In this document: piece by piece, positions 4,207-26,200 of the stretch
Layout: each line of letters starts with the position of its first letter
How positions within the stretch are numbered: the stretch's first letter is position 1
Assembly (NCBI GenBank): GCA_000471925.1
Contig: CP006668.1
Location: 310,001 to 374,000, forward strand
Reading direction: 5' to 3'
Length of the DNA stretch: 64,000 nt
DNA from: Ralstonia pickettii DTP0602
GTDB taxonomy: Bacteria; Pseudomonadota; Gammaproteobacteria; Burkholderiales; Burkholderiaceae
Notes under the pieces: model-generated
Told to the model about the DNA's origin: nothing
What the model saw: the letters and a program-made list of their open reading frames with translations, nothing else
Database searches by the model: none
Made by a program: the position numbers and the translations under genes

Positions 4207-4283
4207 CCCGCGCGGCGGACGGGGGAGGGGGCTCCGCCCGGCCCGCCCGCGTTTTTTCGCATCCACAAGAGAAGGAAACCATC

Positions 4284-4874: not shown

Positions 4875-4922
4875 GCCCAAACGATCCGACCCCGGCTTCC
4901 CCACAATCCAACGGAGACAAGC

Positions 4923-11687: not shown

Positions 11688-11757
11688 GCCGGGTAACCTT
11701 TTGGGGTGTAGGGGATGGCACACAAGCGCCGGGGCGACGCAGGGAGTTTGATAGAAT

Positions 11758-11774
11758 TTGGCACAAAGCTTGCA
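11758..11774 (+). promoter_or_regulatory. sigma-54 (-24/-12) promoter match before MarR gene
   Basis: TTGGCAC, five bases, then TTGCA matches the sigma-54 consensus (TGGCAC-N5-TTGC) exactly, with GG at 11760-11761 and GC at 11772-11773, ten bases apart. Transcription would start near 11785, just before the MarR start at 11801. The -12 half overlaps the palindrome at 11767-11783. A perfect match of this length is unlikely by chance in 64 kb, but a sigma-54 dependent marR gene would be unusual, and I did not identify an enhancer site. Confidence 0.45.
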
Positions 11775-11783
11775 TTGCAAGCT
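11767..11783. promoter_or_regulatory. 17-bp perfect palindrome, probable MarR operator
   Basis: AGCTTGCA-T-TGCAAGCT is perfectly symmetric over 17 bases. It lies 17 bases before the MarR start codon and in the common promoter of the divergent SnoaL-like gene. MarR dimers bind palindromes of this size. It overlaps the -12 element of a sigma-54 type promoter, so binding would block transcription. Autoregulation is inferred. Confidence 0.65.
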
Positions 11784-11800
11784 AAATGACCTAAGCGACG

Positions 11801-12343
11801 ATGGCGACGAATCCTGCAAGCAAGACTCTGACGATCACGCACCCGGCTTGCCTGATCGATGGCTCGGACCGCGAGTTCCGGCACCTGGTCAATGGCCTGT
11901 TGCCGTTTGCCGCGCGGCTGCTTTCCGTGCGCGACGGCTTCGGCAGCCTGATCGGCCTGACCGGGGTACAGTACTCGCTGATCCGCTCCATTTCGCACCT
12001 TTCGCAGCAAGGCGAGGTAACGGTGAACCAGCTGGCCGACCACCTGCACCTGAGCGGCCCGTTCATTACCATCGAAACCGGCAAGCTGAAGAAGCTTGGC
12101 CTGATCGACAAGAAGGCCCATCCCGACGACAAGCGCAAGATGCGGCTGACCATCACGGCGGCGGGATCGAAGCTGCTCAATGAACTGCTGCCGGTGCAGC
12201 AGCAGATCAATGACGTGCTGTTCGACGGCGTCACCCGCACCGAATTCAAGGTGCTGTGCTCGGTGGTCGACCGCCTGGTCGCCAACGGCGACCGCGCCGC
12301 GCTCGACCTGGAGCACCTGCAGGCGCGCCGCCAGAAGGGCTAG
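11801..12343 (+). CDS. MarR-family transcriptional regulator
   Basis: A 180-residue MarR protein, somewhat longer than the 140-150 usual because of an N-terminal extension of about 25 residues. The winged helix core runs about residues 60-140: VTVNQLADHLHLSGPFITIETGKL is the DNA-reading region, and LGLIDKKAHPDDKRKMRLTIT is the beta wing with the typical DxR-like acidic/basic pattern. MarR dimers usually repress their own and a divergent gene until a phenolic or other ligand binds. A 17-bp palindrome directly upstream is the likely operator. The cysteine desulfurase paralogue converges from downstream. The start has only a weak ribosome site. Ligand unknown. Confidence 0.85.
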   Translation: MATNPASKTLTITHPACLIDGSDREFRHLVNGLLPFAARLLSVRDGFGSLIGLTGVQYSLIRSISHLSQQGEVTVNQLADHLHLSGPFITIETGKLKKLGLIDKKAHPDDKRKMRLTITAAGSKLLNELLPVQQQINDVLFDGVTRTEFKVLCSVVDRLVANGDRAALDLEHLQARRQKG

Positions 12344-12353
12344 CCCGCTGCCT

Positions 12354-13577
12354 TCAGTGCGCGGCCCACTGGACGGTGCCGACATCGATGCCCTCCTGGT
12401 GCATTTCCCATAGCGGGCTCAGTTCGCGCAGCCGCGACACCGTGGCGCTGACCTGCCGGATCACTTCATCGACTTCCGCTTCGGTGGTATAGCGGCCCAG
12501 CGTAAAGCGGATCGAGCTGTGCGCCAGTTCGTCGCTGCGGCCGAGCGCCCGCAGCACGAACGACGGCTCCAGCGAGGCTGAGGTGCAGGCCGAGCCCGAA
12601 GACACCGCCACGTCCTTAATGCCCATGATCAGGGATTCGCCTTCGACAAAGTTGAAGCTGATGTTCAGGTTGTGCGGGATGCGGTGCGCGAGGCTGCCAT
12701 TGACGTAGACCTCGTCCAGCCGCGACAGCCCCGCCAGCAGCCGGTCGCGCAGCGCGCCTACACGGCGCGCTTCTTCCGCCAGTTCCAGTCTTGCCAGCCT
12801 GAAGGCTTCGCCCATGCCCACGATCTGGTGCGTCGGGAGGGTGCCGGAGCGCATGCCGCGCTCATGCCCGCCGCCGTGGATCTGCGCTTCCAGCCGGATG
12901 CGCGGCTTGCGTCGCACGTAGAGCGCGCCGATGCCCTTGGGGCCGTAGACCTTGTGCGCGGTCACCGTAAGCAGGTCGATCTTCAGCGCCTCCAGGTCGA
13001 TGGGAACCTTGCCCGCCGCCTGCACCGCATCGCAGTGGAACACGATGCCTGCCGCGCGGCAGATCTCACCGATCTGCGCGACCGGCTGGATCACGCCGAT
13101 CTCGTTGTTGACCATCATCACCGACACCAGGATGGTGTCCGGCCGCAATACGCCGCACAGCGTGTCGAGATCGACCAGGCCGTCTTCGCCGACATCCAGG
13201 TAGGTCACCGCAAAGCCCTGCCGTTCCAGCTCGCGGCAGGTATCGAGCACCGCCTTGTGCTCGGTCCTGACCGTGACGATGTGATTCCCCTTGCCCCGAT
13301 AGAAATGCGCTGCGCCCTTGATGGCCAGGTTGTTGCCCTCGGTCGCGCCGGAGGTCCAGACGATCTCGCGCGGGTCAGCATTGAGCAGCGCCGAGACATG
13401 CGCGCGCGCGGCTTCCACCGCCTCTTCCGCCTGCCAGCCGTAGTAGTGGCTGCGCGAGGCCGGGTTGCCGAACTGGTGCTGCAGGAACGGGACCATCTTC
13501 TCGACGACGCGGGCGTCGACCGGCGTCGTCGCGCTGTAGTCCATGTAGATCGGAAGGGATTTCGGTTCGGTTGGCAT
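12354..13577 (-). CDS. iscS: cysteine desulfurase, stand-alone IscS paralogue
   Basis: A 407-residue class V PLP enzyme that moves sulfur from cysteine to acceptor proteins. Motifs include [11 protein letters not shown] at the start, [13 protein letters not shown] near 78, [11 protein letters not shown] near 155, [10 protein letters not shown] near 182 and the PLP lysine in [10 protein letters not shown] near 208. The persulfide cysteine C331 lies in [12 protein letters not shown]. These are group I (IscS) rather than SufS features. ATG 13577 has AGGA about ten bases upstream; an ATG at 13586 is too close to that site. No iscR, iscU, iscA or hsc genes are adjacent, so it is probably a second copy serving a special route rather than the main Fe-S pathway. 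Confidence 0.85.
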
Positions 13578-13946
13578 GGGGCTCATTTCCTGGATGCGGA
13601 GGTGGGGAGGACCGTGTGCAGGCGAACCCGCTGGTCAAGGAAAGTGGGGCCGAGTCTAGCACCGGGTGCCCGCGCGCCGGGCGGGTGCCATGCTGCCGGT
13701 AGGGTTGCTTGACGCCTCTCCACTGGCTCTGCCGGCGTGTCTGGTGACCCGGCGTGCCGCCCGCAAAGTCTTGTTCAGCAAGGCTTTGCGGATTTCTTCA
13801 GGGGCCGGCGCGCGCGCCCTCCGGATCCCGCCTAGGGTTTCCACTAACTTGAATAGCGTTGTTACCTAGCATTCAATAATATCTAACTTACAAAGCTAAT
13901 AAACAAAGCAATAGAGTTGATGGAACAAACATGCGTAGGAGTCGTG
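13578..13946. other. 369-base intergenic leader region
   Basis: This gap separates the iscS paralogue from the large monooxygenase-transporter operon. It holds no convincing gene. The left half is GC-rich and contains a strong hairpin at 13761-13791. The right half (about 13840-13935) is markedly AT-rich for this genome, with TAATAT at 13877-13882, and is the probable promoter of the operon. No -35/-10 pair with normal spacing could be chosen. An in-frame TTG/ATG at 13917/13920 lies upstream of the better supported start at 13947. Confidence 0.6.
13761..13791. repeat. 31-base hairpin, 13-bp stem
   Basis: CCGCAAAG-T-CTTG, loop TTCAG, CAAG-G-CTTTGCGG. All pairs are Watson-Crick except one T-G. 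No T-run follows on either strand and both neighbouring genes are transcribed away from it, so it is not an obvious terminator. It could be a regulatory cruciform or an RNA structure in the iscS leader. Confidence 0.6.
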
Positions 13947-14480
13947 ATGGCTGAGTCATCTGCCGGTCGTGGCGTCGAGATGGACGCCGATGCACAGCGC
14001 CGCTTCAGGAATGCGCTGGCGATGTTTGCAACGGGTGTCGCCGTGATCACGGCGCCGCGCGAAGAGGGGGTGCCGGTCGGCATCACGGTGGCGTCGTTCA
14101 ACTCGGTGTCGCTGGACCCGCCGCTGGTGCTGTTCTCGGTCGACCGCCGCTGCCTGAGCCTTGGCGACTTGCGCACGGCCCCCCGCTTCGCGGTCAACGT
14201 GCTGGCCGAAGCGCAGCAGGAGATCTCGAACCGGTTCGCGAAGGCGAACACAGGCAAGTGGGAAGGCATCGACTTCGGCGCGCAGGACGGCGAGCGCCAT
14301 GTGCTGCTGCCGGATGCGCTGGCCACGTTCGAATGCGAGCCCTACGCGCAGCACGACGGCGGCGACCACGTCATCTTCATCGGGCGGGTGGTCCGCCATC
14401 AGGCCCGGCACGACGGCCGGCCCCTGATCTTCTTTGGCGGCAAGTACCGGGCACTGGAAGACAGCCCGGCCGCCGCTTGA
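13947..14480 (+). CDS. flavin reductase component of second two-component monooxygenase
   Basis: A 177-residue HpaC/DIM6-type flavin reductase. RRFRNALAMFATGVAVITAP (about 12-31) is the family's opening helix. ITVASFNSVSLDPPLVLFSV near 42-61 forms the flavin pocket, and HVIFIGRVV and LIFFGGKYRAL are the C-terminal strands. ATG 13947 is preceded by GTAGGAG with ideal spacing. It heads an operon of ten same-strand genes with small gaps, and its oxygenase starts 37 bases downstream. It delivers reduced flavin to that HpaB-type enzyme. It is clearly different from the tcpX-like reductase at 2010, so each oxygenase has its own reductase. Confidence 0.85.
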   Translation: MAESSAGRGVEMDADAQRRFRNALAMFATGVAVITAPREEGVPVGITVASFNSVSLDPPLVLFSVDRRCLSLGDLRTAPRFAVNVLAEAQQEISNRFAKANTGKWEGIDFGAQDGERHVLLPDALATFECEPYAQHDGGDHVIFIGRVVRHQARHDGRPLIFFGGKYRALEDSPAAA

Positions 14481-14517
14481 ATCCACAAAACACAGGCAGT
14501 CAGGACAGGAGAACGAC

Positions 14518-16002
14518 ATGATCAAGACCGGTAGCCAACACATCGCGATGCTGCGCGATGGCCGCGAAGTGTATCTGGACGGCAAGCGGGTCACGGACGT
14601 CACGGTGCACCCGGCGTTCCGCAACTCGATTCGCAGCTACGCCAATCTCTACGATTACCAGGCGCGTCCCGAGAACATCGAGAAGATGACCTTCCAGCCC
14701 GCAGGCGCGGACCGGCGCGTGAGCCGCATCTGGGAGCTCCCCACCAGCTACAACGAGCTGGTCGAGCGCCGCCAGATGCTGGAAGCCTGGACCGCGCTGC
14801 ACTATGGCTTCATGGGCCGCTCGCCCGACCATGTCGCCTCCTGTATCTCGGGCATGGTCATGGGCATCGACGTGCTCGAGCAGGCCGATCCCGCTCGCGC
14901 CGGTGCGTTGCGTGATTACTACCGCTATGCGCGGGACAACGACCTGTTCCTGACCTACGTCATCGTGAACCCGCAGGCCAACCAGGCCAAGGCGGCGCAC
15001 GAGCAGGAAGACAAGTACCTGGCCGTGGGCATTGTCGACCAGGACGCCGAGGGCATCACGGTGCGCGGCGCGAAGATGCTGGCCACCAGCGGCATCATGG
15101 CCAACGAGGTGTTCTGCAGCTGCATCCAGCCGCTGCGCGAGGGCGACGAGATGTATGCGCTGTCGTTCGCGGTGCCGATGAACACCAAGGGGCTGAAGGT
15201 GATGTCGCGCAAGTCGTACGAGGCCAGCGCTACCTCGGTCTTCGACAACCCGCTCGCGAGCCGCTTCGACGAGAACGATGCCGTGCTCTATTTCGACGAC
15301 GTCAAGGTGCCGTGGGACCGGATCTTCGTCGCGGGCGACGTAGCGATGTGCGCAAAGCAGTTCCACGCCACGCCCGCCCACGTCTACCAGAACTACCAGT
15401 GCCAGGTCCGGCTGATGGTGAAGCTGCGCTTCCTGGTCGGGCTCGCGCACCGGATCACCGAGATCAACGGCACCAACGGCTTCCCGCAGGTCAGGGAGCT
15501 GCTGGGCCAGCTCGCCGCGGAGGCGGGCATGGTCGAGGCCTGGGTCTACGGCATGGAGGCCAAGGGCCAGGTCAACCAGAACGGCTATTTCGTGCCCGAC
15601 CGCAGCATGCTGTACGGCTCGCAGGTGGTGACGCAGCAGCTCTATGCCAAGGTGCTCAACACGCTGCGCGAGCTGGCCGGCGGCGGCATGATCATGCTGC
15701 CGTCGAGCATCGGGGATTTCGCCAACCCCGCGCTCGCCGGGATTATCGCCAAGACGCAGAAGTCGCCGGTGTGCAGCCCGGAGGAGCGCGTCAAGTTCTT
15801 CAAGCTGGCCTGGGATGCCGTCGGCTCCGAGTTTGCCTCGCGCCATAACCAGTACGAGATGTTCTACGCCGGCGCCACCTTCGTCACCAAGGGCCACGCC
15901 TACCGGACCTACGACTGGAAGAGCGCTTCCGGCCTGGTCGACCACATGCTCGGCAGCTACTCCCTCGAAGACGAACTGGCCCGGCTGCCGCAGGCGGCCT
16001 GA
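14518..16002 (+). CDS. HpaB-family FADH2-dependent monooxygenase
   Basis: A 494-residue member of the 4-hydroxyphenylacetate 3-hydroxylase/PvcC family. It opens MIKTGSQHIAMLRDGREVYL, then shows LYDYQA, YRYARDNDLFLTYVIVNPQA near 150 and KMLATSGIMANEVFC near 190. VPWDRIFVAGD near 260 and GGGMIMLPSS near 395 follow. It is clearly separate from the TcpA-like enzyme at 2653 and closer in wording to HpaB. Such enzymes hydroxylate phenolic or heteroaromatic rings ortho to a hydroxyl. The start follows CAGGAGAACGAC. The neighbouring cupin, amidase and FAH-like genes suggest the hydroxylated product is ring-opened and carries an amide or ring nitrogen. Substrate unknown. Confidence 0.83.
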   Translation: MIKTGSQHIAMLRDGREVYLDGKRVTDVTVHPAFRNSIRSYANLYDYQARPENIEKMTFQPAGADRRVSRIWELPTSYNELVERRQMLEAWTALHYGFMGRSPDHVASCISGMVMGIDVLEQADPARAGALRDYYRYARDNDLFLTYVIVNPQANQAKAAHEQEDKYLAVGIVDQDAEGITVRGAKMLATSGIMANEVFCSCIQPLREGDEMYALSFAVPMNTKGLKVMSRKSYEASATSVFDNPLASRFDENDAVLYFDDVKVPWDRIFVAGDVAMCAKQFHATPAHVYQNYQCQVRLMVKLRFLVGLAHRITEINGTNGFPQVRELLGQLAAEAGMVEAWVYGMEAKGQVNQNGYFVPDRSMLYGSQVVTQQLYAKVLNTLRELAGGGMIMLPSSIGDFANPALAGIIAKTQKSPVCSPEERVKFFKLAWDAVGSEFASRHNQYEMFYAGATFVTKGHAYRTYDWKSASGLVDHMLGSYSLEDELARLPQAA

Positions 16003-16046
16003 CACGCCTGCATTGTTTCCCCCTTGCCCCGATAACGGAGATCAGC

Positions 16047-16427
16047 ATGGCAATCAACAAGCTTCACGACGAATTCCATACCGTAGACCTGGCGTCCGGC
16101 TGGGAGGTCCCTCACGGCTATCCCGCCGGCATCCAGCAGAAGATCCTGTCCGGCGCGCTGGACGAAGGCGGCCGCGGCGGCAGCCGCACCCGCCTGCTGC
16201 GCTTTGACCCGGGTGTCTTCACCACCGCGCCGTTCGTGCACGAGTACTGGGAGGAGGTTTACCTGCTCAGCGGCGACCTGACCGTCGGCAACGATGTCAA
16301 CGGGGAGGGCGGCGAAGCCTTCGCGCCCAACACCTACGCCTGCCGTCCGCCCGGCGCATTCCATGGTCCGTTCAAGTCGAGCGGCGGTTGCATGCTGCTG
16401 GAAATCCACTACTACGACCCGGCCTGA
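16047..16427 (+). CDS. small cupin-domain protein
   Basis: A 126-residue single-cupin protein related to the ChrR/acetylacetone-dioxygenase type. The first cupin motif holds H65 with the acidic pair E69-E70 in FVHEYWEEVYLLSGDL. The second holds H106 in RPPGAFHGPF. These are plausible ligands for a divalent metal. Start ATG 16047 follows ACGGAG. It lies between the monooxygenase and the amidase, and its stop is two bases before the amidase start, so the translation is coupled. In a catabolic operon it might be a ring-cleaving dioxygenase, an isomerase or a stabilising metal protein. The sequence does not decide between these. Confidence 0.75.
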   Translation: MAINKLHDEFHTVDLASGWEVPHGYPAGIQQKILSGALDEGGRGGSRTRLLRFDPGVFTTAPFVHEYWEEVYLLSGDLTVGNDVNGEGGEAFAPNTYACRPPGAFHGPFKSSGGCMLLEIHYYDPA

Positions 16428-16429
16428 TC

Positions 16430-17773
16430 ATGGAAGCCACCGTAGCCTCCACCAGACGCCAGCTTGCCGACGGCAGCGCCAATGCGCAGTCACTGCTGGC
16501 AGCGTGCGTCGAACGCATCTGCAATCCGGGCGGCGAAGGCGCGCGCGTCTTCCCGCATGGCGTCAGCATGGCGGCCCGCAAGCAGGCCCAGGCGAGCGAC
16601 ATGCTGCGCGAACAGGGCGTGGCGGGCCCGCTTGCAGGGTTGCCCGTCTCCGTGAAGGACCTGTTCGACGTGCAGGGCGACGTGACCCGCGCCGGTGCCC
16701 GCGTGCTGCCGGAGCGGCCCGCCGGTGCGGATGCGCCGCCCATCGCCCGCTTGCGTGCGGCGGGGGCTGTGCTGGTCGGGCGTACCAATATGACCGAGTT
16801 CGCCTACTCCGGTGTCGGCATCAATCCGCACTATGGCACGCCGCGCAACCCGTTCGACCGGCAAGCCGGCCGCATTCCGGGCGGATCGTCGTCCGGGGCA
16901 GCGGTGTCCGTGACCGACGGCATGGCGCTGGCCGCGGTCGGTTCGGACACCGGCGGCTCCTGCCGCATCCCCGCGGCGCTGTGCGGCATCGTCGGCTTCA
17001 AGCCCACGGCAAGCCGCGTGCCGCTGCAGGGTGCGGTACCGCTGTCGCCCAGCTACGACTCGGTCGGGTGCCTGGCCAATACGGTTGCGTGCTGTGCCGC
17101 CGTCGATGCGGTGATGGCAGGCGAAGAGGGGCCCACGGCAGCGGTGCCGCTCGTGGGCCTGCGCCTGGCCGTGCCGACCGGGCTGGTGCTGGAAGGCATC
17201 TCCGATGAGGTTGCCGAGGTCTTCAGCCGCACGCTGCGCCGGCTGTCCGCGGCTGGCGCGTTGCTGCAGGACGTGGAGTTCGACAGCTGGGACCAGCTGG
17301 CCGAGCTCGGCGCCCACGGCGGCATGGTTGCCGCCGAGGCCAGCGCATGGCACGGCAGCCTGGTGGCGGCGCATGCCGACCGCTATGACCCGCGCGTGCT
17401 GTCGCGCATCCGGCTGGCGGACGGGCAGCGCGCCGCCGATTACCTGCGCATGCGGCAGCGCCGCGGCGAGCTGTGCCGGCGGGCGGACGCCGAACTGGCG
17501 GGCTTCGATGCCGTGGTCCTGCCGACCGTGCCGATCGTCGCGCCGCGCATTGCGGACCTCGACGATGACGACACCTTTTTTGCCACCAACCGGCTGCTGC
17601 TGCGCAACCCGGCCATCGCCAACATGCTGGACCTGTGCTCGCTGTCGGTCCCTTGCCATCGCCACGGCGAGGCGCCGGTCGGCCTGATGCTGTTCGGCCG
17701 CCACCTTGCCGACCGCAGGCTGCTGGCGATCGGCATGGGGATCGAGTCGGCGCTGCGCCATGAACGAGGTTAG
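16430..17773 (+). CDS. amidase-signature family hydrolase
   Basis: A 447-residue amidase signature enzyme with the full Ser-Ser-Lys triad: K76 in VSVKDLFDVQG, the cis-serine in GGSSSG (residues 151-156) and nucleophile S177 in GSDTGGSCRIPA. The Gly/Ser-rich core runs about 70-200, and the C-terminal half includes DAVVLPTVP near 365. The family hydrolyses amides, ureas and related C-N bonds. The C-terminal wording resembles enzymes annotated as aspartyl/glutamyl amidotransferase A-like hydrolases. No gatB or gatC is present, so it acts alone. It overlaps nothing but starts right behind the cupin stop. It suggests that the pathway substrate or an intermediate contains an amide. Confidence 0.87.
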   Translation: MEATVASTRRQLADGSANAQSLLAACVERICNPGGEGARVFPHGVSMAARKQAQASDMLREQGVAGPLAGLPVSVKDLFDVQGDVTRAGARVLPERPAGADAPPIARLRAAGAVLVGRTNMTEFAYSGVGINPHYGTPRNPFDRQAGRIPGGSSSGAAVSVTDGMALAAVGSDTGGSCRIPAALCGIVGFKPTASRVPLQGAVPLSPSYDSVGCLANTVACCAAVDAVMAGEEGPTAAVPLVGLRLAVPTGLVLEGISDEVAEVFSRTLRRLSAAGALLQDVEFDSWDQLAELGAHGGMVAAEASAWHGSLVAAHADRYDPRVLSRIRLADGQRAADYLRMRQRRGELCRRADAELAGFDAVVLPTVPIVAPRIADLDDDDTFFATNRLLLRNPAIANMLDLCSLSVPCHRHGEAPVGLMLFGRHLADRRLLAIGMGIESALRHERG

Positions 17774-17835
17774 ACCCCGGCGGCAGCGCCGCCGACCGTA
17801 ATACCCGGCATTTCCATAAATACATAGGAGACAAC

Positions 17836-19074
17836 ATGCCTGATATCCGTATCGGCGCGGCCGTGCTTGCCTGCGCCACCCTGTTCGCGGCGACTGCCGC
17901 GACGGCGCAAACAGCTCCCGTCAGCGCACCCGTCAGCGACGGCGTGGTCAAGGTCGGTGTCCTGACCGACATGTCGTCCATCTTTTCCGACATCGGCGGC
18001 AAGGGCTCGGTGGTGGCCGCGCAAATGGCCGTGGACGATTTCGGCGGCAAGGTGCTGGGCGCACCGATCCAGGTGGTGAGCGCCGACCACCAGAACAAGA
18101 CCGACGTGGCTGCTACGCTGGCGCGCGGCTGGTTCGACAACCAGAAGGTCGACATCATCCAGGACGCGCTGCCGTCCTCGGTGGCGCTGGCCGTCTCCAA
18201 CCTGGGCAAGCTCAAGCGCAAGATCGTCATTGCCAGCGGCGCCGGCACCACGCGCCTGAGTAACGAGGATTGCTCGCCTTACACTATCCAGTACTCGTAC
18301 GACACCTACGCATTCGCCGCTAATACCGTCAAGGCCCTGGCACGGCGCGGCGACAACAGCTGGTACTTCCTGACCGTCGACTATGCCCTTGGTGCATCGC
18401 TCGAGAAGGACGGTACCGAGGCGCTGTCGGGCGTCGGCGGAACCATCAAGGGCAAGGCGAAGCATCCGATCAATTCGGCGGACCTGTCGTCCTACCTGCT
18501 GCAGGGGCAGGCTTCCGGCGCGAAGGTGATCGGCCTGGCCAACGCGGGCGCCGACACGGTCAATGCGATCAAGACGGCAGCGGACTTCGGCATGAACGGC
18601 GCGGGCAAGCAGAGGCTGGCCGGGCTGCACATGTTCATCAGCGACATCCACAGCCTGGGGCTGAAAGCCGCACAGGGCATGACGCTGACCACGGCGTTCT
18701 ACTGGGACCGCGATGACGCCACGCGCGCCTGGTCGCAACGGTTCTTCGAGAAGACCGGGCGCATGCCGACGCTGGTCCATGCCGGCGTGTATTCGTCGAC
18801 GATGCACTACCTCAAGGCGGTCCAGGCCGCGCGCACGGACGAAAGCGATGCCGTGCTGGCCAGGATGCGCGCGACGCCGGTCAATGACTTCTTCGCCAGC
18901 AACGGCACGATCCGCGCCGACGGCCTGATGGTCCACGACATGTACCTGGTCGAAGTGAAGCGCCCGCAGGAGTCGAAGCGGCCCTGGGACTACTACAAGA
19001 TCAAGGCCGTGATCCCCGCGAACGAAGCATTTCGTCCGCTCAGCGCAAGCACCTGCCCGCTGGTCAGGAAGTAA
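17836..19074 (+). CDS. branched-chain-type ABC transporter substrate-binding protein
   Basis: A 412-residue periplasmic binding protein (type I, LivJ-like). The signal peptide ends near residue 25 (ATAATAQ). It then shows VKVGVLTDMSSIFSDIGGKG, VVAAQMAVDDFGGKVLG and the central NKTDVAATLARGW segment. In many Burkholderiales members of this group the ligands are aromatic acids, amides or urea-like compounds rather than amino acids. It follows the amidase by 62 bases with TAGGAG before the start. The FAH-like gene separates it from its ATPase genes. It is presumably the binding subunit for the LivGFHM-type importer downstream, and its ligand would be the substrate of this operon. Confidence 0.88.
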   Translation: MPDIRIGAAVLACATLFAATAATAQTAPVSAPVSDGVVKVGVLTDMSSIFSDIGGKGSVVAAQMAVDDFGGKVLGAPIQVVSADHQNKTDVAATLARGWFDNQKVDIIQDALPSSVALAVSNLGKLKRKIVIASGAGTTRLSNEDCSPYTIQYSYDTYAFAANTVKALARRGDNSWYFLTVDYALGASLEKDGTEALSGVGGTIKGKAKHPINSADLSSYLLQGQASGAKVIGLANAGADTVNAIKTAADFGMNGAGKQRLAGLHMFISDIHSLGLKAAQGMTLTTAFYWDRDDATRAWSQRFFEKTGRMPTLVHAGVYSSTMHYLKAVQAARTDESDAVLARMRATPVNDFFASNGTIRADGLMVHDMYLVEVKRPQESKRPWDYYKIKAVIPANEAFRPLSASTCPLVRK

Positions 19075-19147
19075 GCCCCATCTACCTGGCCGGCGCCGGC
19101 ACGTGTGCCAGCACCGGTCAGCCACAACACCGCAGAGAGCATCCGAA

Positions 19148-19837
19148 ATGAAAACCCTTACCTTTGATATCGAAACCCGCCTCGGCAAGTCGCAGCGCGC
19201 CGTCACCATCTGCCAGTTGGTCGTGGCCGGATGGACCGGCCGGGACGTCGAAGCCATGGAGGCCCACATCCGCGAGCTGGAGGAACTGGGCGTGAAGCGT
19301 CCCGCCTATACCCCGGTCTTCTATCGCGTCGCGGCGGCGCGGCTGGGTACCGCGGGGGAGATCCAGGTCAGCGGCGAAGCGAGCAGCGGCGAGGCCGAGT
19401 TCCTGCTGGTCAGGGATGGCGGCGAGATCCTGGTGGGCATCGCCTCGGACCATACCGACCGCGAGGCCGAGACCTACGGCATTACCGTATCGAAGCAGAT
19501 GTGCGAAAAGCCCTGTGCGCCGACCTTGTGGCGCCTGGCCGAAGTGGCGGGACACTGGGACCGGCTGGTGCTGCGCTCCTACGCCACCATCGACGGCGAA
19601 CGTGTGCTGTACCAGGAGGGCCCGGTGACGGCCATGCGGTCCCCGACCGACCTGCTGGAGCGGTTCGCCGGCCACGGTGGTGACTTTGGCGAGGGCGCGG
19701 CCATGCTGTGCGGCACCTTGCCCGCCATCGGCGGCATCCGCCCGGCCGAGCGCTTCGAGATCGAACTGGAAGATCCGGTGCTTGGGCGCACGCTGCGCCA
19801 TGCATACGCGGTCGCGACGCTGCCCGTCGAGGGTTGA
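19148..19837 (+). CDS. DUF2848 protein, fumarylacetoacetate-hydrolase-like
   Basis: A 229-residue protein of the DUF2848 family. The C-terminal sequence LCGTLPAIGGIRPAERFEIELED follows the pattern of the final strands in fumarylacetoacetate hydrolases (GTP-GVG-GD-EVEI). SDHTDREAET near 105 and CAPTLWRL near 125 could supply acidic metal ligands and a catalytic residue. FAH-fold enzymes cleave C-C bonds in ring-opened aromatics or hydrate dienoates. It lies between the binding protein and the ATPase genes of one importer, inside the monooxygenase operon. I therefore infer a step after ring opening. The assignment to the FAH fold is by eye and has not been confirmed by structure search. Confidence 0.7.
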   Translation: MKTLTFDIETRLGKSQRAVTICQLVVAGWTGRDVEAMEAHIRELEELGVKRPAYTPVFYRVAAARLGTAGEIQVSGEASSGEAEFLLVRDGGEILVGIASDHTDREAETYGITVSKQMCEKPCAPTLWRLAEVAGHWDRLVLRSYATIDGERVLYQEGPVTAMRSPTDLLERFAGHGGDFGEGAAMLCGTLPAIGGIRPAERFEIELEDPVLGRTLRHAYAVATLPVEG

Positions 19838-19886
19838 GCATGGCGCGCCATCCACATTGCCACGGCAGCGCTACGGAGTTACGCCC

Positions 19887-20663
19887 ATGCCCCAAGACGA
19901 CCTGATACTGGCCACCCGGAACCTCGGGAAATCCTTCCGCGGCTTCACGGCGGTGAGCGATGTCAACCTGCGGGTGCGACGCGGGTCGATCCATGCATTG
20001 ATCGGGCCCAACGGCGCGGGCAAGACCACTTGCTTCAACCTGCTCACCAAGTTCCTGGAGCCGACCACCGGCACCATCCTATTCAACGGCATCGACATCA
20101 CCCGCGAGAAGCCCGCGCAGATCGCGCGCCGCGGCGTGATCCGTTCCTTCCAGATCTCGGCGGTGTTCCCGCACCTGACGGTGATGGAGAACGTGCGCAT
20201 CGGCCTGCAGCGCCAGCTTGGCACCGCGTACCAGTTCTGGCGCAGCGAGCGCTCGCTGAACGTGCTCAACGACCGCGCCATGGAACTGCTCGAGCAGGTC
20301 GGGCTGACCGAGTTCGCGCACACCGTCACGGTGAACCTGCCGTACGGCCGCAAGCGCGCGCTCGAGATCGCCACGACGCTGGCGATGGAGCCCGAGCTGA
20401 TGCTGCTGGACGAACCCACGCAGGGCATGGGCCATGAGGACGTGGACCGCGTCACGCAGCTGATCAGGAAGGTCTCGGCGGGCCGCACCATCCTGATGGT
20501 GGAGCACAACATGAGCGTGGTGTCGTCGATCGCGGACAAGATCACGGTGCTGCAGCGCGGCGCGATCCTGGCCGAGGGCCCTTACGCTGAAGTGTCGAAG
20601 GACCCGCGCGTGATGGAGGCCTACATGGGCACTGTCGACGCGGAACTGCAAGGCGCGCACTGA
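19887..20663 (+). CDS. livG: ABC transporter ATPase, LivG type
   Basis: A 258-residue ATPase. Walker A is GPNGAGKTT near residue 38. The signature is the LivG-typical NLPYGRKRALEIA in place of LSGGQ, Walker B is LMLLDEPTQGMG and the H-loop is MVEHNMSVV. LivG proteins carry a longer helical insert, seen here as FWRSERSLNVLNDRAMELLEQ. It pairs with the LivF-type ATPase eleven bases downstream and drives the LivH/LivM-type permeases. It powers import of the unknown ligand bound by the protein at 17836, at the inner face of the cytoplasmic membrane. Confidence 0.92.
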   Translation: MPQDDLILATRNLGKSFRGFTAVSDVNLRVRRGSIHALIGPNGAGKTTCFNLLTKFLEPTTGTILFNGIDITREKPAQIARRGVIRSFQISAVFPHLTVMENVRIGLQRQLGTAYQFWRSERSLNVLNDRAMELLEQVGLTEFAHTVTVNLPYGRKRALEIATTLAMEPELMLLDEPTQGMGHEDVDRVTQLIRKVSAGRTILMVEHNMSVVSSIADKITVLQRGAILAEGPYAEVSKDPRVMEAYMGTVDAELQGAH

Positions 20664-20673
20664 GGGGCACGAC

Positions 20674-21399
20674 ATGACGACATCGAATACACCTGCCCTC
20701 GAAATCAAGGGCCTGGAGGCCTGGTACGGCGAATCGCACATCCTGCACGGCGTGGACCTGACGGTGAACCGCGGTGAAGTGGTCACGCTGCTGGGCCGCA
20801 ACGGCGCCGGTCGCACCACCACGCTGCGCGCGATCATGGGCCTGACGGGTGCGCGCAAGGGCTCGATCAAGGTCAATGGCCATGAAACCATCAGCCTGCC
20901 CACGCACAAGATCGCGCACTACGGCATTGGCTATTGCCCCGAAGAGCGCGCCATCTTCTCCAGCCTCTCATGCGAAGAAAACCTGATGCTGCCGCCCGTG
21001 CTCAAGGGCGCCGACACCAGCAAGGGCATGAGCGAGGCGGATATCTACGAGATGTTCCCGAACCTGAAGGAGCGGCGCCAGAGCCAGGGCACGCGTCTTT
21101 CCGGCGGCGAGCAGCAGATGCTGGCGGTCGGGCGCATCCTGCGCACGGGTGCCAACCTGCTGCTGCTCGATGAAATCTCGGAAGGGTTGGCACCGGTGAT
21201 CGTGCAGGCGCTCGCGCGCATGATCCTGATGCTCAAGCAGAAGGGGTACACGGTGGTGATAGTGGAGCAGAACTTCCGCTTCGCCGCGCCGCTGGCCGAC
21301 CGCTTCTACGTGATGGAGCACGGCAGCATCGTCGAGCGCTTCGCGGCCAGTGAGCTGCAGGCCAGGATGCCGGTGCTGCATGAACTGCTGGGCGTATGA
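20674..21399 (+). CDS. livF: ABC transporter ATPase, LivF type, with altered Walker A
   Basis: A 241-residue ATPase with the signature RLSGGEQQMLAVGR, Walker B LLLLDEISEGLAP and the family's VEQNF in place of an H-loop histidine. The Walker A reads GRNGAGRTTT, so arginine replaces the lysine that normally contacts the ATP phosphates. The same replacement occurs, as far as I recall, in other Burkholderiales LivF proteins and so may be a lineage trait rather than damage. With the normal LivG Walker A it suggests an asymmetric ATPase pair. The gene starts ten bases after livG and ends nine before livH. Confidence 0.92.
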   Translation: MTTSNTPALEIKGLEAWYGESHILHGVDLTVNRGEVVTLLGRNGAGRTTTLRAIMGLTGARKGSIKVNGHETISLPTHKIAHYGIGYCPEERAIFSSLSCEENLMLPPVLKGADTSKGMSEADIYEMFPNLKERRQSQGTRLSGGEQQMLAVGRILRTGANLLLLDEISEGLAPVIVQALARMILMLKQKGYTVVIVEQNFRFAAPLADRFYVMEHGSIVERFAASELQARMPVLHELLGV

Positions 21400-21408
21400 G
21401 GAGCCCCT

Positions 21409-22293
21409 ATGACTCTGTTTGAAATCCCGTTTCCGGCGCTGCTGTCGCAGCTGCTGCTGGGGCTCGTCAATGGTGCTTTCTACGCCATGCTGAGCCTGGG
21501 CCTGGCGGTCATCTTCGGCCTGCTGAACGTCATCAACTTTGCGCACGGTGCGCTCTTCATGCTCGGCGCGGTGCTGGCGTGGGCCGGCATGACCTATGCC
21601 GGGCTCAGCTACTGGGCGATGCTGCTGCTGTCGCCGCTGGTGGTCGCAGCACTGGGCGTGGCGATCGAGAAGACCATGCTGCGCTGGATCTACAAGCTGG
21701 ACCATATCTACGGCCTGCTGCTGACGCTCGGCATCACGCTGGTGATCGAGGGCATCTTCCGCTCGGTCTATGGCGTGTCCGGGCTGCCCTATTCGCCGCC
21801 CGAAGCGCTGCAAGGCGCCGCCGACCTCGGCTTCATGCGCTTGCCCAACTACCGCGCGTGGGTAGTCGTGGCTTCGCTGGCGGTCTGCATGTCGACCTGG
21901 TACGTGATCGAGAAGACCCGGCTGGGCGCCTACCTGCGCGCGGGCACCGAGAACGCCAAGGTGGTGGAGGCCTTCGGCGTCAACGTGCCGCTGATGGTCA
22001 CGCTGACCTACGGCTTCGGCGTGGCACTGGCGGCGTTTGCCGGCGTGCTGGCCGCGCCGGTCATGCAGGTGTCGCCGCTGATGGGGCAGAACCTGATCAT
22101 CATCGTGTTCGCGGTGGTGGTGATCGGCGGCATGGGCTCGATCCTGGGCGCGATCCTGACCGGCCTGGGTCTGGGCGTGATCGAAGGGCTGACCAAGGTG
22201 TTTTATCCGGAAGCATCGTCGACCGTGGTGTTCGTGACCATGGTGATCGTGCTGCTGTTGCGCCCGGCAGGGCTGTTCGGAAAGGAGAAATGA
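21409..22293 (+). CDS. livH: branched-chain-type ABC permease, LivH type
   Basis: A 294-residue inner-membrane permease with about eight hydrophobic segments. The LivH opening LLSQLLLGLVNGAFYAMLSLGLAVIFGLLNVINFAHG is intact, with the conserved NFAHG near residue 45. The cytoplasmic coupling loop EAFGVNVPLM near 187 includes the EAA-like A-FG pattern, and GGMGSILGAI near 240 is also conserved. A GAGG ribosome site precedes ATG 21409. The stop codon overlaps the ATGA at the LivM start, showing translational coupling. Substrate selection is set by the binding protein. Confidence 0.92.
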   Translation: MTLFEIPFPALLSQLLLGLVNGAFYAMLSLGLAVIFGLLNVINFAHGALFMLGAVLAWAGMTYAGLSYWAMLLLSPLVVAALGVAIEKTMLRWIYKLDHIYGLLLTLGITLVIEGIFRSVYGVSGLPYSPPEALQGAADLGFMRLPNYRAWVVVASLAVCMSTWYVIEKTRLGAYLRAGTENAKVVEAFGVNVPLMVTLTYGFGVALAAFAGVLAAPVMQVSPLMGQNLIIIVFAVVVIGGMGSILGAILTGLGLGVIEGLTKVFYPEASSTVVFVTMVIVLLLRPAGLFGKEK

Positions 22294-23309
22294 TGAACGG
22301 GCAATCTATCGCTGCACTGGGAATGCAGCCACCGCAGGCGGTACGCCGCCTGCCACGGCGGGCACTGTACGTGGCGCTGCTGGCGTGCCTGCTGGCGGCG
22401 CCGCTGGCAGGGGCCTATCCGGTGTTCGTGCTCAAGGTGCTGTGCTTCGCGCTGTTTGCATGCGCCTTCAACCTGCTGATCGGCTACACCGGGCTGCTGT
22501 CGTTCGGCCATGCGGCCTTTTTTGGCGGCGCCGGCTACGCGGCCGGCCATGCGATGAAGGCCTGGGGCGTGACGCCGGAGATCGGCCTGATCCTGGGCAT
22601 GGCCACCGGCGCTCTGATCGGCTACGTGGTGGGCTCGCTGGCGATCCGCCGGCAGGGCATCTACTTCTCGATGATCACGCTGGCACTGGCGCAGATGCTG
22701 TTCTTCATCTGCCTGCAGGCGCCGTTCACCGGCGGCGAGGACGGCCTGCAGGGCATCCCACGCGGCAAGCTGTTCGGCGTGCTGTCGCTGTCTAGTGACC
22801 TGACGCTGTACTACGTGGCGCTGGCGATCATCGTCGCGGCCTTTGCGCTGATCGTGCGCACGGTGCATTCGCCGTTCGGGCAGATCCTGAAGGCGATCAA
22901 GGAGAACGAGCCGCGCGCGATCTCGCTGGGCTATGACGTCGACCGCTTCAAGGTGACCGCCTTCGTGCTGTCGGCGGCGCTGTCGGGGCTGGCCGGCTCG
23001 ATCAAGGCGCTGGTGCTGGGCTTCGAGACGCTGACCGATGTGCACTGGTCGATGTCCGGGATGGTCATCCTGATGACCTTGCTGGGCGGCCTCGGCACGC
23101 TGTCCGGGCCGATCGTCGGCGCCTTTGTCGTGGTCGCGCTGGAGAACAAGCTCGGCGAACTGGGCAGCTACCTGGCGGCCGCGACGGGCATCGACTGGTT
23201 CAACGGGCTCGGGGAATCGGTGTCGATGGTGACCGGCATTATCTTCATCGTCTGCGTGCTGACGTTCCGCAGGGGCATCGTCGGCAGTCTGGGGCGAAGT
23301 CCTGGATGA
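22293..23309 (+). CDS. livM: branched-chain-type ABC permease, LivM type
   Basis: A 338-residue permease; ATG 22293 is five bases after AAAGGAG, and an adjacent ATG at 22290 gives one more residue. The LivM core is present: FNLLIGYTGLLSFGHAAFFG near 50-70, GRKLFG-like loop before SSDLTLYYV, the coupling segment AIKENEPRAISLGYD near 205 and GGLGTLSGPIVGA near 265. It closes the ten-gene operon that began at 13947. Eighteen bases after its stop begins the left half of a terminator hairpin that has been split by the IS4 element. Confidence 0.92.
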   Translation: MNGQSIAALGMQPPQAVRRLPRRALYVALLACLLAAPLAGAYPVFVLKVLCFALFACAFNLLIGYTGLLSFGHAAFFGGAGYAAGHAMKAWGVTPEIGLILGMATGALIGYVVGSLAIRRQGIYFSMITLALAQMLFFICLQAPFTGGEDGLQGIPRGKLFGVLSLSSDLTLYYVALAIIVAAFALIVRTVHSPFGQILKAIKENEPRAISLGYDVDRFKVTAFVLSAALSGLAGSIKALVLGFETLTDVHWSMSGMVILMTLLGGLGTLSGPIVGAFVVVALENKLGELGSYLAAATGIDWFNGLGESVSMVTGIIFIVCVLTFRRGIVGSLGRSPG

Positions 23310-23337: not shown

Positions 23338-24836
23338 CTTGCCTTTACCCACAACTTCCGGCGGCTTACTCGTTTTTCTGGAAGATCCGATACATTTCGG
23401 TGATTTCGTGCAGGGCGAGGAAGCCGCGCCACAGGACGGTGGCTCCCGGGGGATCGTCGTTTTTGCGACCCAGGTAGCCACCGAGCTTGGCGATCCAAAG
23501 GACAGCTTCGCTGAGTTTGGGCGCCTGCTCCGGTGGCTTGGTGGTGCCGTGCGTGCGGCAGTACAAAGCCCGCCATTCGAGCGATTGCAGTAGCACCGAG
23601 CAAGGGATATCGGCTTCGAGCCGGCCCAGCATGGTCGCGTACATAATGCGCCAGCCGATCACGGCGAACAGCGCCGTGGCCCGCAGGAACCGCTCCAGCG
23701 TCCCGAACTGCCGGGCCTCGATCTGGCAGCCACTTTTCAGGACACGATGCCAGGATTCAATGGTCCAGCGCCGGGCGTACCAGCTCAGCCGTTCGAGCAC
23801 ATCTTCCAGCGTTTGGGTGGGCATCGAACTGAGCAACATCCATTCGAGCGGCTCAACGCCTTCGGGCGGCTCGATTTCCAGCGCGTGAATGGCAAACACT
23901 TCGAGACTCGGTAGCCCCTCTGCACCGCGGCTGCGCGGCGCTCGCAGTTGGACCGGCACACAGCGCAAAGCCAGTCGGGCACTACGTGCCTGCCTGGCGC
24001 CGGACCTGGGCACGTGCAGTACGGTCTCCCCAAGTACAGGAGCCGCGGCAACCGTCTCCCACAGATACTTCTCTGGGTGGTCCACGCCCCGATTCCAGGC
24101 GGCCCGCACCAACCAGTCCACCCCCGCTGGGCGCGGCGCCAGAAACACGTCATACACATCGCCCTCGCGATCGCTGACGGCAACAAGGTGCGTGTCCGGA
24201 CACTGCATCTTGAGCGGCTCAAGGCATTCCAGCCCCTCCAGCCACTTCACGCTTTCCTTCTCGCGAATGGACAGCGCCCGGCGCTGCCTGGCCTTGCCCG
24301 ATGCTTGCGGCGCACGCACCCACGTCTTCATGCTCAACACGCCCAGTGGCAGGCCCTCAGGCGTCACCGCCAGCACGCTGTGCAACATGAATCCGTGCAA
24401 ATTGCCGCCCGTGCCGTGACCAAGTCCCTCAGTCGCGGGCAAATTTGCCAGATTGAATTCCGTGGTGTCCTGCACCGTCAGGACGACAGGCACCTGCTGC
24501 ATGCGACCCACGGTTTGAACGACGTGGCTCGCCAGTATTCCGTCCGGGTCGACCGCCTCATTATCAAAGAAGCGATATGCCGCCTTGAGTTGGGCACCAC
24601 TCAAGGCCTGCGGGAACGAAACATGGGCTTTTTGCGCCAGTCCGCGCGCCAATGCCACAAGGCGCTGCGTGCGACGTGCATCGCCCAACTGAGCGCCACC
24701 GAATTCGTCGCTGGCCCAGTCTTCCAGATCTTCCGTATCAGGCAAAATTGCCACCACTGATTGTCAACTTCACCCGAAGTTAACACCGTCCAATCCGGTT
24801 TACAACCTTTCCTATCGAGATGTGGGTAAAGGCAAG
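23338..24836 (-). mobile_element. complete IS4-family insertion sequence, 1499 bp
   Basis: The element begins CTTGCCTTTACCCACA and ends with its exact reverse complement TGTGGGTAAAGGCAAG, giving 16-bp perfect terminal inverted repeats. They extend imperfectly inward. Direct 10-bp duplications CCCGCTTGCG flank both ends. It carries a single full-length transposase gene on the minus strand. The intact ends, duplication and open reading frame suggest a recent insertion that may still be mobile. It landed in the loop of the terminator between livM and dadA, disrupting no gene. No second copy is present in the window. Confidence 0.93.
23366..24757 (-). CDS. IS4-family transposase (Tn5-like DDE)
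   Basis: A 463-residue transposase that fills the element. Its N-terminal domain (WASDEFGGAQLGDARRTQRLVALA) is the Tn5-type DNA-binding region. The catalytic core shows the first Asp in VLTVQDTTEFN near 99, the second in VAVSDREGDVYD near 195 and the YREK signature in WYARRWTIESWHRVLKSG near 335, whose Glu is the third acidic residue. LEWMLLSSMPTQTLEDV precedes it in the expected place. No frameshift is seen. The protein cuts and rejoins the element at its terminal repeats. Confidence 0.93.
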   Translation of the reverse strand: MVAILPDTEDLEDWASDEFGGAQLGDARRTQRLVALARGLAQKAHVSFPQALSGAQLKAAYRFFDNEAVDPDGILASHVVQTVGRMQQVPVVLTVQDTTEFNLANLPATEGLGHGTGGNLHGFMLHSVLAVTPEGLPLGVLSMKTWVRAPQASGKARQRRALSIREKESVKWLEGLECLEPLKMQCPDTHLVAVSDREGDVYDVFLAPRPAGVDWLVRAAWNRGVDHPEKYLWETVAAAPVLGETVLHVPRSGARQARSARLALRCVPVQLRAPRSRGAEGLPSLEVFAIHALEIEPPEGVEPLEWMLLSSMPTQTLEDVLERLSWYARRWTIESWHRVLKSGCQIEARQFGTLERFLRATALFAVIGWRIMYATMLGRLEADIPCSVLLQSLEWRALYCRTHGTTKPPEQAPKLSEAVLWIAKLGGYLGRKNDDPPGATVLWRGFLALHEITEMYRIFQKNE

Positions 24837-24872: not shown

Positions 24873-26141
24873 TCAGGCCTTGGCCAATGCCAGCGCCGCA
24901 GCCGGCGCGACCGCCGTCTTTGCGCCGAGGTGTTGCTCAACCACCCCAGCCACCATATCCGCCGTCACCGCGGACAACGTCCAGCCCAGGTGCCCATGCC
25001 CCGTGTTGTAGAAGACGCACGGCGCTTTCCCTCGGCCTACGCGCGGCAGCATGTCCGGCATCATCGGCCGCAATCCGGCCCAGGGCACCACGCTGCGCGT
25101 GCTGACACCCGGGAAGCACTGCTGCACCCACTCCACCAGCGGCCGGATGCGATCGGCGCGGATGTCGCGGTTGTAGCCGTTGAACTCCGCGGTGCCGGCC
25201 ACGCGGAAGCGGTCGTCGCCCAGGCGGCTGGTGACCAGCTTGGTTGCATCGTCGAGCAGGCTGACGGTCGGCGCCGCGGCGCGGCTGGCCTCGTCGGCCA
25301 GGTTGACCGTGATCGAATAGCCTTTGACCGGGTAGATGTTGACACGGTCCCCCAGGCCGGCCGCCAGCGCGCGGCTGGCGGTGCCGGCGCAGATCATGGC
25401 GCCGTCGAAGGTCGACGTGGACGTATCGGTGCCTTGCTGCACGGTCACGCTGGCGCGCCTGCCGTCGGTCTTGACGGCGCTGACGTCCTGCCCGTAGAGG
25501 CAGCGCACGCCGAGCCGGTCGATGGCCGCGGCCAGGCCGCTGGTGAACTTGTGGATATCGCCGGTCGAGTCGCTCTCGGTGAAATACCCGCCGTAGTAGG
25601 AGCCCACCAGCGTCGGCTCGATCGCCCGCATCTCCTGCGGCGTCACGGCGCGCCGCTCCAGCCCGCCCTGCGCCAGCAGCGCGGAGACGCGGCCGGCATG
25701 CTCGAAGCCGGCCTTGTCGCGGTAGATATGGAGGATGCCCTCTTTCTTCAGGTCGAAATCGATGCCCTCCTGCGCCGCCCAGGCGAACAGGTGCTCGCGG
25801 GCCGCGATGGCCAGGCGCGCGGTCTCGGCAGTATTGCTGCGGTAGTGGGGGATCGACGCGATGAACTCGGCAAACCACGTGAGCTTGTGCCAGCTCGGGC
25901 TGGGATTGACCAGCAGCGGGGCGTCGCTCCTGAGCATCCATTTGAGCCCCTTGACGATGGTCGACCAGTGGGTCCAGACCTCGGCATTGGAGGCGGACAG
26001 CTGTCCGCCATTGGCGAACGAGGTCTCCATGGCGGCATAGCGATGCCGTTCGAACAGCGTGACGGAGAATCCGCGCCGGGCGAGCGCGTAGGCTGTGGTG
26101 ACACCGGTGATGCCACCGCCGATGACGGCGATTGTCTTCAT
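24873..26141 (-). CDS. dadA: D-amino acid dehydrogenase / glycine oxidase-type flavoenzyme
   Basis: A 422-residue DAO-family oxidoreductase. The FAD-binding VIGGGITGVTTAYALARRGF lies at residues 5-24 and ERHRYAAMETSFANGGQLS near 35-53. The C-terminal NTGHGHLGWTLS near 390 is the DadA-type closing motif. The family oxidises D-amino acids (and in related enzymes glycine) to keto acids and ammonia at the membrane quinone pool. The start is ATG 26141; the longer open frame upstream is untranslated leader that contains a tandem glycine riboswitch. That control makes glycine, or a D-amino acid handled with it, the likely physiological substrate. It faces livM across the interrupted terminator. Confidence 0.88.
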   Translation of the reverse strand: MKTIAVIGGGITGVTTAYALARRGFSVTLFERHRYAAMETSFANGGQLSASNAEVWTHWSTIVKGLKWMLRSDAPLLVNPSPSWHKLTWFAEFIASIPHYRSNTAETARLAIAAREHLFAWAAQEGIDFDLKKEGILHIYRDKAGFEHAGRVSALLAQGGLERRAVTPQEMRAIEPTLVGSYYGGYFTESDSTGDIHKFTSGLAAAIDRLGVRCLYGQDVSAVKTDGRRASVTVQQGTDTSTSTFDGAMICAGTASRALAAGLGDRVNIYPVKGYSITVNLADEASRAAAPTVSLLDDATKLVTSRLGDDRFRVAGTAEFNGYNRDIRADRIRPLVEWVQQCFPGVSTRSVVPWAGLRPMMPDMLPRVGRGKAPCVFYNTGHGHLGWTLSAVTADMVAGVVEQHLGAKTAVAPAAALALAKA

Positions 26142-26174
26142 GAGCTGCAGGCTCCAGGAACGTCGATGGTGGGA

Positions 26175-26200
26175 GTCCATACGCAATATGCGTAGCGGAC
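26175..26200 (-). promoter_or_regulatory. hairpin between riboswitch and dadA (expression platform candidate)
   Basis: In the mRNA, GTCC-GC-TACGCA, loop TAT, TGCGTA-T-GGAC forms a stem directly after the second glycine aptamer and before the ribosome site. The next bases include CTCCC, which could pair with the GGAG ahead of the start. There is no U-run, so control of translation start rather than termination is suggested. Confidence 0.5.

Follow-up and report, generated by a model that had tools for sequence, protein, structure and literature searches.

What is degraded by the products of ten adjoining genes in Ralstonia pickettii DTP0602 that encode a flavin reductase, an HpaB-type oxygenase, a cupin, an amidase, a DUF2848 protein and a complete importer? 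The genes occupy positions 13947–23309 of the window, a stretch of 64,000 nucleotides from contig CP006668.1 (positions 310,001 to 374,000, forward strand) of this 8.1 Mb genome. A first-pass annotation had read them as a catabolic pathway for an imported nitrogen-containing aromatic. The present analysis suggested, with confidence evenly balanced, a catabolic operon under MarR control whose substrate is a small N-heteroaromatic acid with a five-membered ring, pyrrole-2-carboxylate (P2C) being the most probable one.

Gene content of the operon

All ten genes were open and on the plus strand, with spacings of 5–76 bases and one 1-base overlap, gap lengths that depend on the start codons picked in this analysis.

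13947–14480, plus strand: flavin reductase, which supplies the oxygenase (Pfam PF01613 Flavin_Reduct, 132.6 bits)
14518–16002, plus strand: flavin monooxygenase of the HpaB type (group D) carrying Arg101-His105-Tyr147, put forward as a pyrrole-2-carboxylate 5-hydroxylase (HpaB_N 304.2 and HpaB 198 bits)
16047–16427, plus strand: small single-domain cupin with a probable metal site His65-Glu69-His106, proposed hydratase or ring-opening enzyme (Cupin_7, 26.2 bits, cut-off 27)
16433–17773, plus strand: amidase-signature amidase, proposed alpha-ketoglutaramate (omega-)amidase (Amidase, 268.5 bits; NF005460, 604.2 bits, cut-off 447)
17836–19074, plus strand: periplasmic substrate-binding protein of the importer (Peripla_BP_6, 334.5 bits)
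19151–19837, plus strand: DUF2848 protein with a predicted FAH fold, proposed tautomerase or isomerase in ring opening (DUF2848, 292.6 bits)
19884–20663, plus strand: LivG-type ATPase (ABC_tran; 108.7 and 95.3 bits for the two ATPases)
20674–21399, plus strand: LivF-type ATPase (ABC_tran, as given for the pair)
21409–22293, plus strand: LivH-type permease (BPD_transp_2; 116.9 and 121.8 bits for the two permeases)
22293–23309, plus strand: LivM-type permease (BPD_transp_2, as given for the pair)

Pfam matches above cut-off were obtained for nine of the ten genes, the cupin falling just below, and an AGGAG at 13937–13941 makes the reductase start at 13947 plausible. The earlier description of ten closely spaced genes in one direction was borne out by open reading frames (ORFs), strands and Pfam/NCBIfam matches. 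Two ATPases, two permeases and a Peripla_BP_6 protein make up a Liv-type ABC importer, and the HpaB_N and HpaB domains with an adjoining flavin reductase gene are those of a two-component group D monooxygenase. The nearest relatives at the locus were found in Cupriavidus, with an HpaB 99% identical in C. necator A5-1 (L057).

The oxygenase belongs to a clade with its own signature

It was found that the window HpaB scored below the NCBIfam equivalog cut-offs, with 355.7 against 480.2 bits for TIGR02309 and 287.4 against 885.2 bits for TIGR02310. In comparison with the Thermus and enterobacterial-type HpaB structures, Arg101 of the GRSPD motif was kept, and His105 and Tyr147 stood in place of Tyr and His. 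The Arg-Tyr-His substrate triad, whose residues are reported to bind the phenol in the Thermus enzyme, is thus replaced by Arg101-His105-Tyr147. Arg-His-Tyr was read in 73 of 73 clade matches with a readable triad (42–100% identity), which include overlapping loci and so are not 73 independent genes; two more matches began past the first two positions. It was also read in all 120 matches listed among the homologues of an Arthrobacter HpaB.

Outside the clade, Arg-Tyr-His or Arg-Phe-His was carried by seven HpaBs in six outgroup loci (35–39% identity). All outgroups of this kind together span 31–39% identity. Four other non-clade matches also differed from Arg-His-Tyr: a separate HpaB of the genome itself (L001, 32% identity) showed Arg-Tyr-His, and that of L003 and the second HpaBs of L005 and L057 (25–26%) aligned with a third-position Pro and with the second position gapped or unread, fitting neither pattern. 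Because the window oxygenase misses both curated cut-offs and carries the clade signature, it is, as judged from sequence, not a 4-hydroxyphenylacetate (4-HPA) hydroxylase.

One of the 120 matches listed, P0332 from Rhodococcus koreensis, bears the NCBI name 'pyrrole-2-carboxylate monooxygenase subunit'. It was 42% identical to the window HpaB over 487 aligned positions, and at E ≤ 1e-100 it found only the operon HpaB in the window's genome. In a maximum-likelihood tree, rooted at the midpoint only, one branch (support 86/78) separated the sister clades of the window protein and P0332 from other HpaBs. P2C monooxygenase is given as a group D enzyme in the available part of a table in PMC6165268.

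The gene set recurs in other genomes

One scan with the window HpaB gave 55 distinct genome loci, and recurrence was counted in stretches reaching at most 10 kb to each side, with set identity thresholds. The flavin reductase, the cupin and a MarR-family regulator were each present in 54 loci, DUF2848 in 50, an IscS-type cysteine desulfurase in 47 and a SnoaL-like protein in 33; the amidase followed with 32, the binding protein and LivG with 29 each, LivF with 27, and LivH and LivM with 26 each. DUF2848 was missing from L027 and L053, which end early on short contigs, and from the remaining three loci L010, L042 and L044. Such recurrence indicates that the gene set is not due to chance. A lack of co-occurrence in other genomes was one of the outcomes that, for the first-pass annotation, would have refuted its proposal; this check favoured the proposal. 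The view of one conserved catabolic unit, probably for an imported nitrogen-containing aromatic, is supported.

The reductase, HpaB, cupin, amidase and DUF2848 were kept together in Shinella (L050, L051), Rhizobium (L052), Paracoccus (L062), Thioclava (L060) and a record labelled Roseateles XES5 (L059), with DUF2848 on the opposite strand in all of these loci except that of Thioclava. The Liv transporter was only 29–37% identical to the window's in the four loci measured (Shinella, Rhizobium and Paracoccus), and transporters of Liv type were present by annotation in Thioclava and XES5. Since the core is kept while the transporter diverges, what is inherited as a unit is the enzyme core and not the importer. 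This core spans beta- to alphaproteobacteria and reaches Arthrobacter with a different amide hydrolase.

The oxygenase was detected at E ≤ 1e-150 in 42 of 299 Burkholderiaceae genomes and in 3 of 300 Burkholderiales genomes, the window's own genome being counted in each, from which it follows that the cluster is uncommon. Cupin matches were obtained in 34 of 249 Pseudomonadota genomes (E ≤ 0.001); only the window's genome (100%) and a single further genome (50%) exceeded 47% identity, besides a 26-residue stretch at 58%.

In two Cupriavidus strains (sp. LEh25, L007, and amp6, L008) the core is present a second time in rearranged form, its DUF2848 and cupin genes being divergent, and the copy in L007 adjoins a VanA-type Rieske oxygenase, a reductase and two alpha/beta hydrolases. 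Molybdenum-hydroxylase genes were found within ∼10 kb of the cluster in L063 (by annotation) and in L130 and L049 (by ORF reading).

Cupin, DUF2848 protein and amidase

In the residue register taken from an alignment with ChrR, Phe63-x-His65, Glu69 and His106 were present in all 54 genome loci with a cupin, with Phe in place of the leading His of HxH. The metal site announced by the first-pass annotation is a probable His65-Glu69-His106 site, not one with the HxH of dioxygenases. In 3-His cupin dioxygenases such as Dke1 and dihydroxyacetophenone dioxygenase, the iron site consists of HxH and a third His, according to the accessible part of PMC4219425; the window cupin, without the first of these residues, does not match them. 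From its sequence, a ring-opening or hydrating enzyme seems more likely.

The predicted model of the DUF2848 protein had an FAH fold over the whole length, so that the FAH-likeness noted earlier holds as to fold, but is not confined to the end of the protein. Residues E81, E83, D103 and K115 were kept in 21 of 21 members read from other loci; we take this Glu-x-Glu, Asp and Lys to be the FAH active site. Fumarylpyruvate hydrolases were among the FAH-fold matches of the model, and a comparison with PDB sequences gave none at E ≤ 0.001 (best, 0.037). In the amidase, Lys75, Ser153 and Ser176 were found in 36 of the 36 in-cluster amidases read, confirming an intact Ser-Ser-Lys triad whose roles are presumably catalytic.

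A proposed route from P2C to 2-oxoglutarate

In the proposed route, P2C would be imported by the Liv-type ABC transporter and hydroxylated at C5 by the HpaB and flavin reductase as a two-component monooxygenase. The cupin and the DUF2848 protein, possibly in this order, may then act on the 5-hydroxypyrrole/5-oxopyrroline ring, tautomerising and hydrating it and opening it, via cyclic 2-hydroxy-5-oxoproline, to alpha-ketoglutaramate, which the amidase would split into 2-oxoglutarate and ammonia. By calculation, adding water to 5-hydroxy-P2C gives the formula of alpha-ketoglutaramate; the operon enzymes would therefore suffice, with no aldolase or CoA step. In the atom balance, one O2 (and NADH) is used and water is added in two hydrations; the route would call for no additional catabolic gene, in keeping with the absence of any from the operon. 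Hydroxylation and amide hydrolysis, two of the reaction types foreseen earlier, are supported. C-C hydrolysis by the FAH-like enzyme is not: with a C5 substrate that is turned into a C5 product, no C-C bond has to be broken.

P2C itself is given about one chance in two as the substrate. The label of P0332 in the sister clade, the shared Arg-His-Tyr and the listing of P2C monooxygenase in group D all point to it. Amide hydrolysis seems to be kept even by an unrelated enzyme, the CN hydrolases of Arthrobacter, Natrinema and Priestia. In Nitratireductor (L046:14504–15892), a UbiD decarboxylase whose best PDB match was the furan-dicarboxylate enzyme HmfF lies beside DUF2848, which would fit a five-membered ring. 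Degradation of P2C reportedly ends at 2-oxoglutarate. By analogy, the last step would copy the alpha-ketoglutaramate and omega-amidase endings described for the pyridine rings of nicotine and 2-hydroxypyridine in the available text of PMC6214936.

Several observations weigh against this proposal. The label of P0332 is a single annotation of untraced source among the 120 matches listed; in UniRef the protein has a name of 4-HPA type, as do the other named matches whose names were visible. An identity of 42% does not fix the substrate, and the joining branch has a support of only 86/78. The UbiD neighbour was seen in one genome only, and AnInD, an indole-3-carboxylate enzyme that ranks second among its PDB relatives, showed no action on P2C, as stated in the available text of PMC8988006. 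The P2C model assigns no part to IscS or to the SnoaL-like protein, both of them conserved neighbours, and the proximity of some loci to molybdenum hydroxylases or a VanA-type oxygenase makes a larger substrate possible. Of the 55 loci, 21 that run uncut through the operon (12 from Burkholderia, 9 from Pandoraea) had no amidase. Fourteen of these genomes were searched, and each held an amidase elsewhere (50–55% identity), in Pandoraea L123 near a second DUF2848 (53%); such a copy is also present in LEh25 and C. laharis, both of which keep the in-cluster amidase. The route is a proposal from sequence, predicted folds and analogy.

Other substrates

A hydroxypyridine-type ring such as 2,6-dihydroxypyridine, converted via trihydroxypyridine to alpha-ketoglutaramate with the same cupin, DUF2848 and amidase ending, was considered unlikely, though it survives best among the alternatives. 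Trihydroxypyridine plus water shares the formula of alpha-ketoglutaramate, the nicotine and 2-hydroxypyridine routes are described with such an ending (PMC6214936, available text), and the oxygenase beside the cupin and DUF2848 in Bradyrhizobium sp. 187, a one-component flavoprotein, has PnpA and HspB, a hydroxypyridine enzyme, as its closest matches. The described routes, however, employ other oxygenases and ring hydrolases, and P2C is the only substrate label other than 4-HPA in the sister clade, among the 120 matches listed.

The first-pass scheme of a phenolic or aryl-amide substrate, cleavage of the ring by a cupin dioxygenase and FAH-type C-C hydrolysis is improbable. HpaB, cupin and FAH folds can perform such reactions in other systems, and Dke1 (3bal) was among the cupin fold matches, as the fumarylpyruvate hydrolases were among those of the FAH fold. 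Against this stand Phe63 at the place of the first His of HxH dioxygenases, the want of Arg-Tyr-His as read in phenol-type enzymes, and the ten genes themselves, which hold no enzyme for the cleavage fragments. A heterocycle containing sulphur, which the IscS paralogue would process after its release, is very improbable. In its favour, 47 of 55 loci have an adjoining IscS-type gene and XES5 has a cysteine-synthase-family gene upstream of the flavin reductase, but the five alphaproteobacterial core loci L046, L048 and L050–L052 lack the IscS gene and none was seen in the Arthrobacter ORF list. Ordinary 4-HPA catabolism, suggested by the automatic names of homologues, is scarcely credible given the sub-cut-off HpaB scores, the differing signature residues, the separate Arg-Tyr-His HpaB of the genome and ten operon genes that include no homoprotocatechuate enzyme.

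Exchange of parts around the cupin and DUF2848

The following cases are single loci picked from lists, not a census. Arthrobacter StoSoilB13 has the order CN_hydrolase-DUF2848-HpaB-cupin-reductase; its transporter there belongs to the MFS and its regulator to the GntR family. In Natrinema a CN-hydrolase-type gene, the cupin and DUF2848 are adjacent. On a Priestia megaterium plasmid (L135:8125–9285), the cupin match lies inside the CN-hydrolase gene in one open frame beside DUF2848; this is a natural fusion linking nitrilase-type amidase and cupin functions. The CN hydrolases beside DUF2848 scored below the curated cut-offs of the families matched. In Bradyrhizobium sp. 187, a one-component FAD monooxygenase accompanies DUF2848 and cupin. 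Vibrio maritimus combines the latter two with a pyridoxal-phosphate-dependent aminotransferase-like protein, which scored best against MocR-type regulators, below their cut-offs. Simpler DUF2848-amidase pairs were found in Pantoea, Phyllobacterium and Paracoccus; near such a pair, Caballeronia SL2Y3 has a gene annotated as ureidoglycolate lyase, which misses the NCBIfam cut-offs for that name.

It is conceivable, if somewhat short of an even chance, that the cupin, DUF2848 and an amide hydrolase of amidase-signature or nitrilase type form an undescribed exchangeable module, and that the cluster gives genes to proteobacterial P2C catabolism. Such a module would open a cyclic carbinolamide to a 2-oxo-acid omega-amide. 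It would range from Burkholderiaceae to a haloarchaeon, behind front ends as different as a two-component HpaB, a one-component flavoprotein and an aminotransferase-like protein.

Further neighbours of DUF2848 were recorded. On Pantoea and Phyllobacterium plasmids (L139, L145, L149) it occurs with an amidase, a DUF4286 protein and an MFS transporter, without oxygenase or cupin. On a Sulfitobacter plasmid (L147) it adjoins a hydantoinase B/oxoprolinase protein, a putative hydro-lyase and a TRAP transporter, neighbours hinting at lactam (oxoproline-like) chemistry. The Nitratireductor locus holds TctABC-like transporter genes with UbiD, from ORF reading.

Upstream neighbours and a probable regulator

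The first-pass annotation had found no regulator gene in the operon. This is corrected here, since a MarR gene recurring in 54 of the 55 loci adjoins the operon upstream, at 1.6 kb and on the same strand.

11106–11819, minus strand: SnoaL-like protein (Pfam SnoaL_4, 26.6 bits, cut-off 24), a neighbour in 33 of 55 loci
11766–11784, no strand: operator-like palindrome TAGCT-N9-AGCTA with 1 mismatch, just upstream of MarR
11801–12343, plus strand: MarR-family regulator (Pfam MarR_2, 37.4 bits)
12354–13586, minus strand: IscS-type cysteine desulfurase paralogue (Pfam Aminotran_5, 285.1 bits), a neighbour in 47 of 55 loci, sharing 74% identity with the second IscS-type copy in the genome
13880–13898, no strand: operator-like palindrome TATCTAACTTACAAAGCTA, upstream of the operon

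The two palindromes of the window thus precede the MarR gene (11766) and the operon (13880). With at most one mismatch, TAGCT-N9-AGCTA was found in 48 of 59 reductase promoter regions (Markov control mean, 0.3) and 16 of 54 MarR upstream regions (mean, 0.1), counts that overstate independence because the common ancestry of the sequences remains in the Markov resampling control. At the same threshold it was found upstream of none of the binding protein (0/31), DUF2848 (0/50), IscS (0/47) and cupin (0/54) genes. Genome-wide there were 28 such sites, fewer than the 152 of the reversed control; the motif is rare in the genome though not unique. In L048, L060, L062, L064 and L130 the best site was poor, with 3–5 mismatches. 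The agreement between beta- and alphaproteobacterial loci (L046, L050, L059) is a stronger point than the Markov control, and regulation of the operon by the MarR-family protein is probable.

Directly after the operon lies a transposase-like ORF (23366–24757), followed by a D-amino-acid-dehydrogenase-like ORF (24873–26231), both named by reading the sequence, with no hidden Markov model. Positions 921–5762 hold a second flavin reductase and HpaB pair together with an intradiol catechol dioxygenase and a LysR gene in divergent orientation; the HpaB of this pair was ∼26% identical to the operon's and its triad was not Arg-His-Tyr. These genes look like a separate aromatic pathway.

Comparison with known systems

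The earlier statement that no known pathway has this gene content agrees with the open-access literature, where no title matched in the part of the results covered. Microbial P2C metabolism was called 'known but poorly understood' in the accessible part of a 2026 paper (PMC12899673). If the proposal is true, genes could be assigned to a degradation route that is known chiefly as an enzyme activity, and the operon would link P2C activity to genes in 42 of the 299 Burkholderiaceae genomes sampled. It would also give a function to members of DUF2848, an FAH-fold family with at least 7,516 hits in one search, and a three-residue marker would separate these oxygenases from the 4-HPA hydroxylases that lend them their name.

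The P2C monooxygenase of Rhodococcus and Arthrobacter is known by activity, the references, cited in PMC6165268 and PMC12899673, reportedly dating from 1991 and 1997. It resembles the window enzyme as a two-component group D oxygenase, and the Rhodococcus protein named for it lies in the sister clade with Arg-His-Tyr; that protein is only 42% identical and is compared here by its label, not as the characterised enzyme's own sequence. The Arthrobacter cluster differs from the window in its CN hydrolase as amide hydrolase and its MFS transporter. In HpaBC 4-HPA 3-monooxygenase, the fold family and the flavin reductase partner are alike, whereas the window enzyme differs by the active-site exchange of Tyr and His, the sub-cut-off scores and other neighbours. 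The DUF2848 protein stands apart from the FAH superfamily members FAHD1, Cg1458, fumarylpyruvate hydrolase and HpcE, its best PDB sequence match having E 0.037. The window cupin matches the ring-opening cupin KdgF no better than it does many cupins, and the substrate class differs. Known omega-amidase is a nitrilase-type enzyme. In the nicotine (pAO1 PKC/NIT) and 2-hydroxypyridine (HpoH/HpoI) systems, an N-heterocycle is likewise hydroxylated and opened to alpha-ketoglutaramate, from which an omega-amidase yields 2-oxoglutarate, the opening by PKC being a hypothesis of that source (PMC6214936, available text); both use a different oxygenase and a different ring-opening protein from those of the window.

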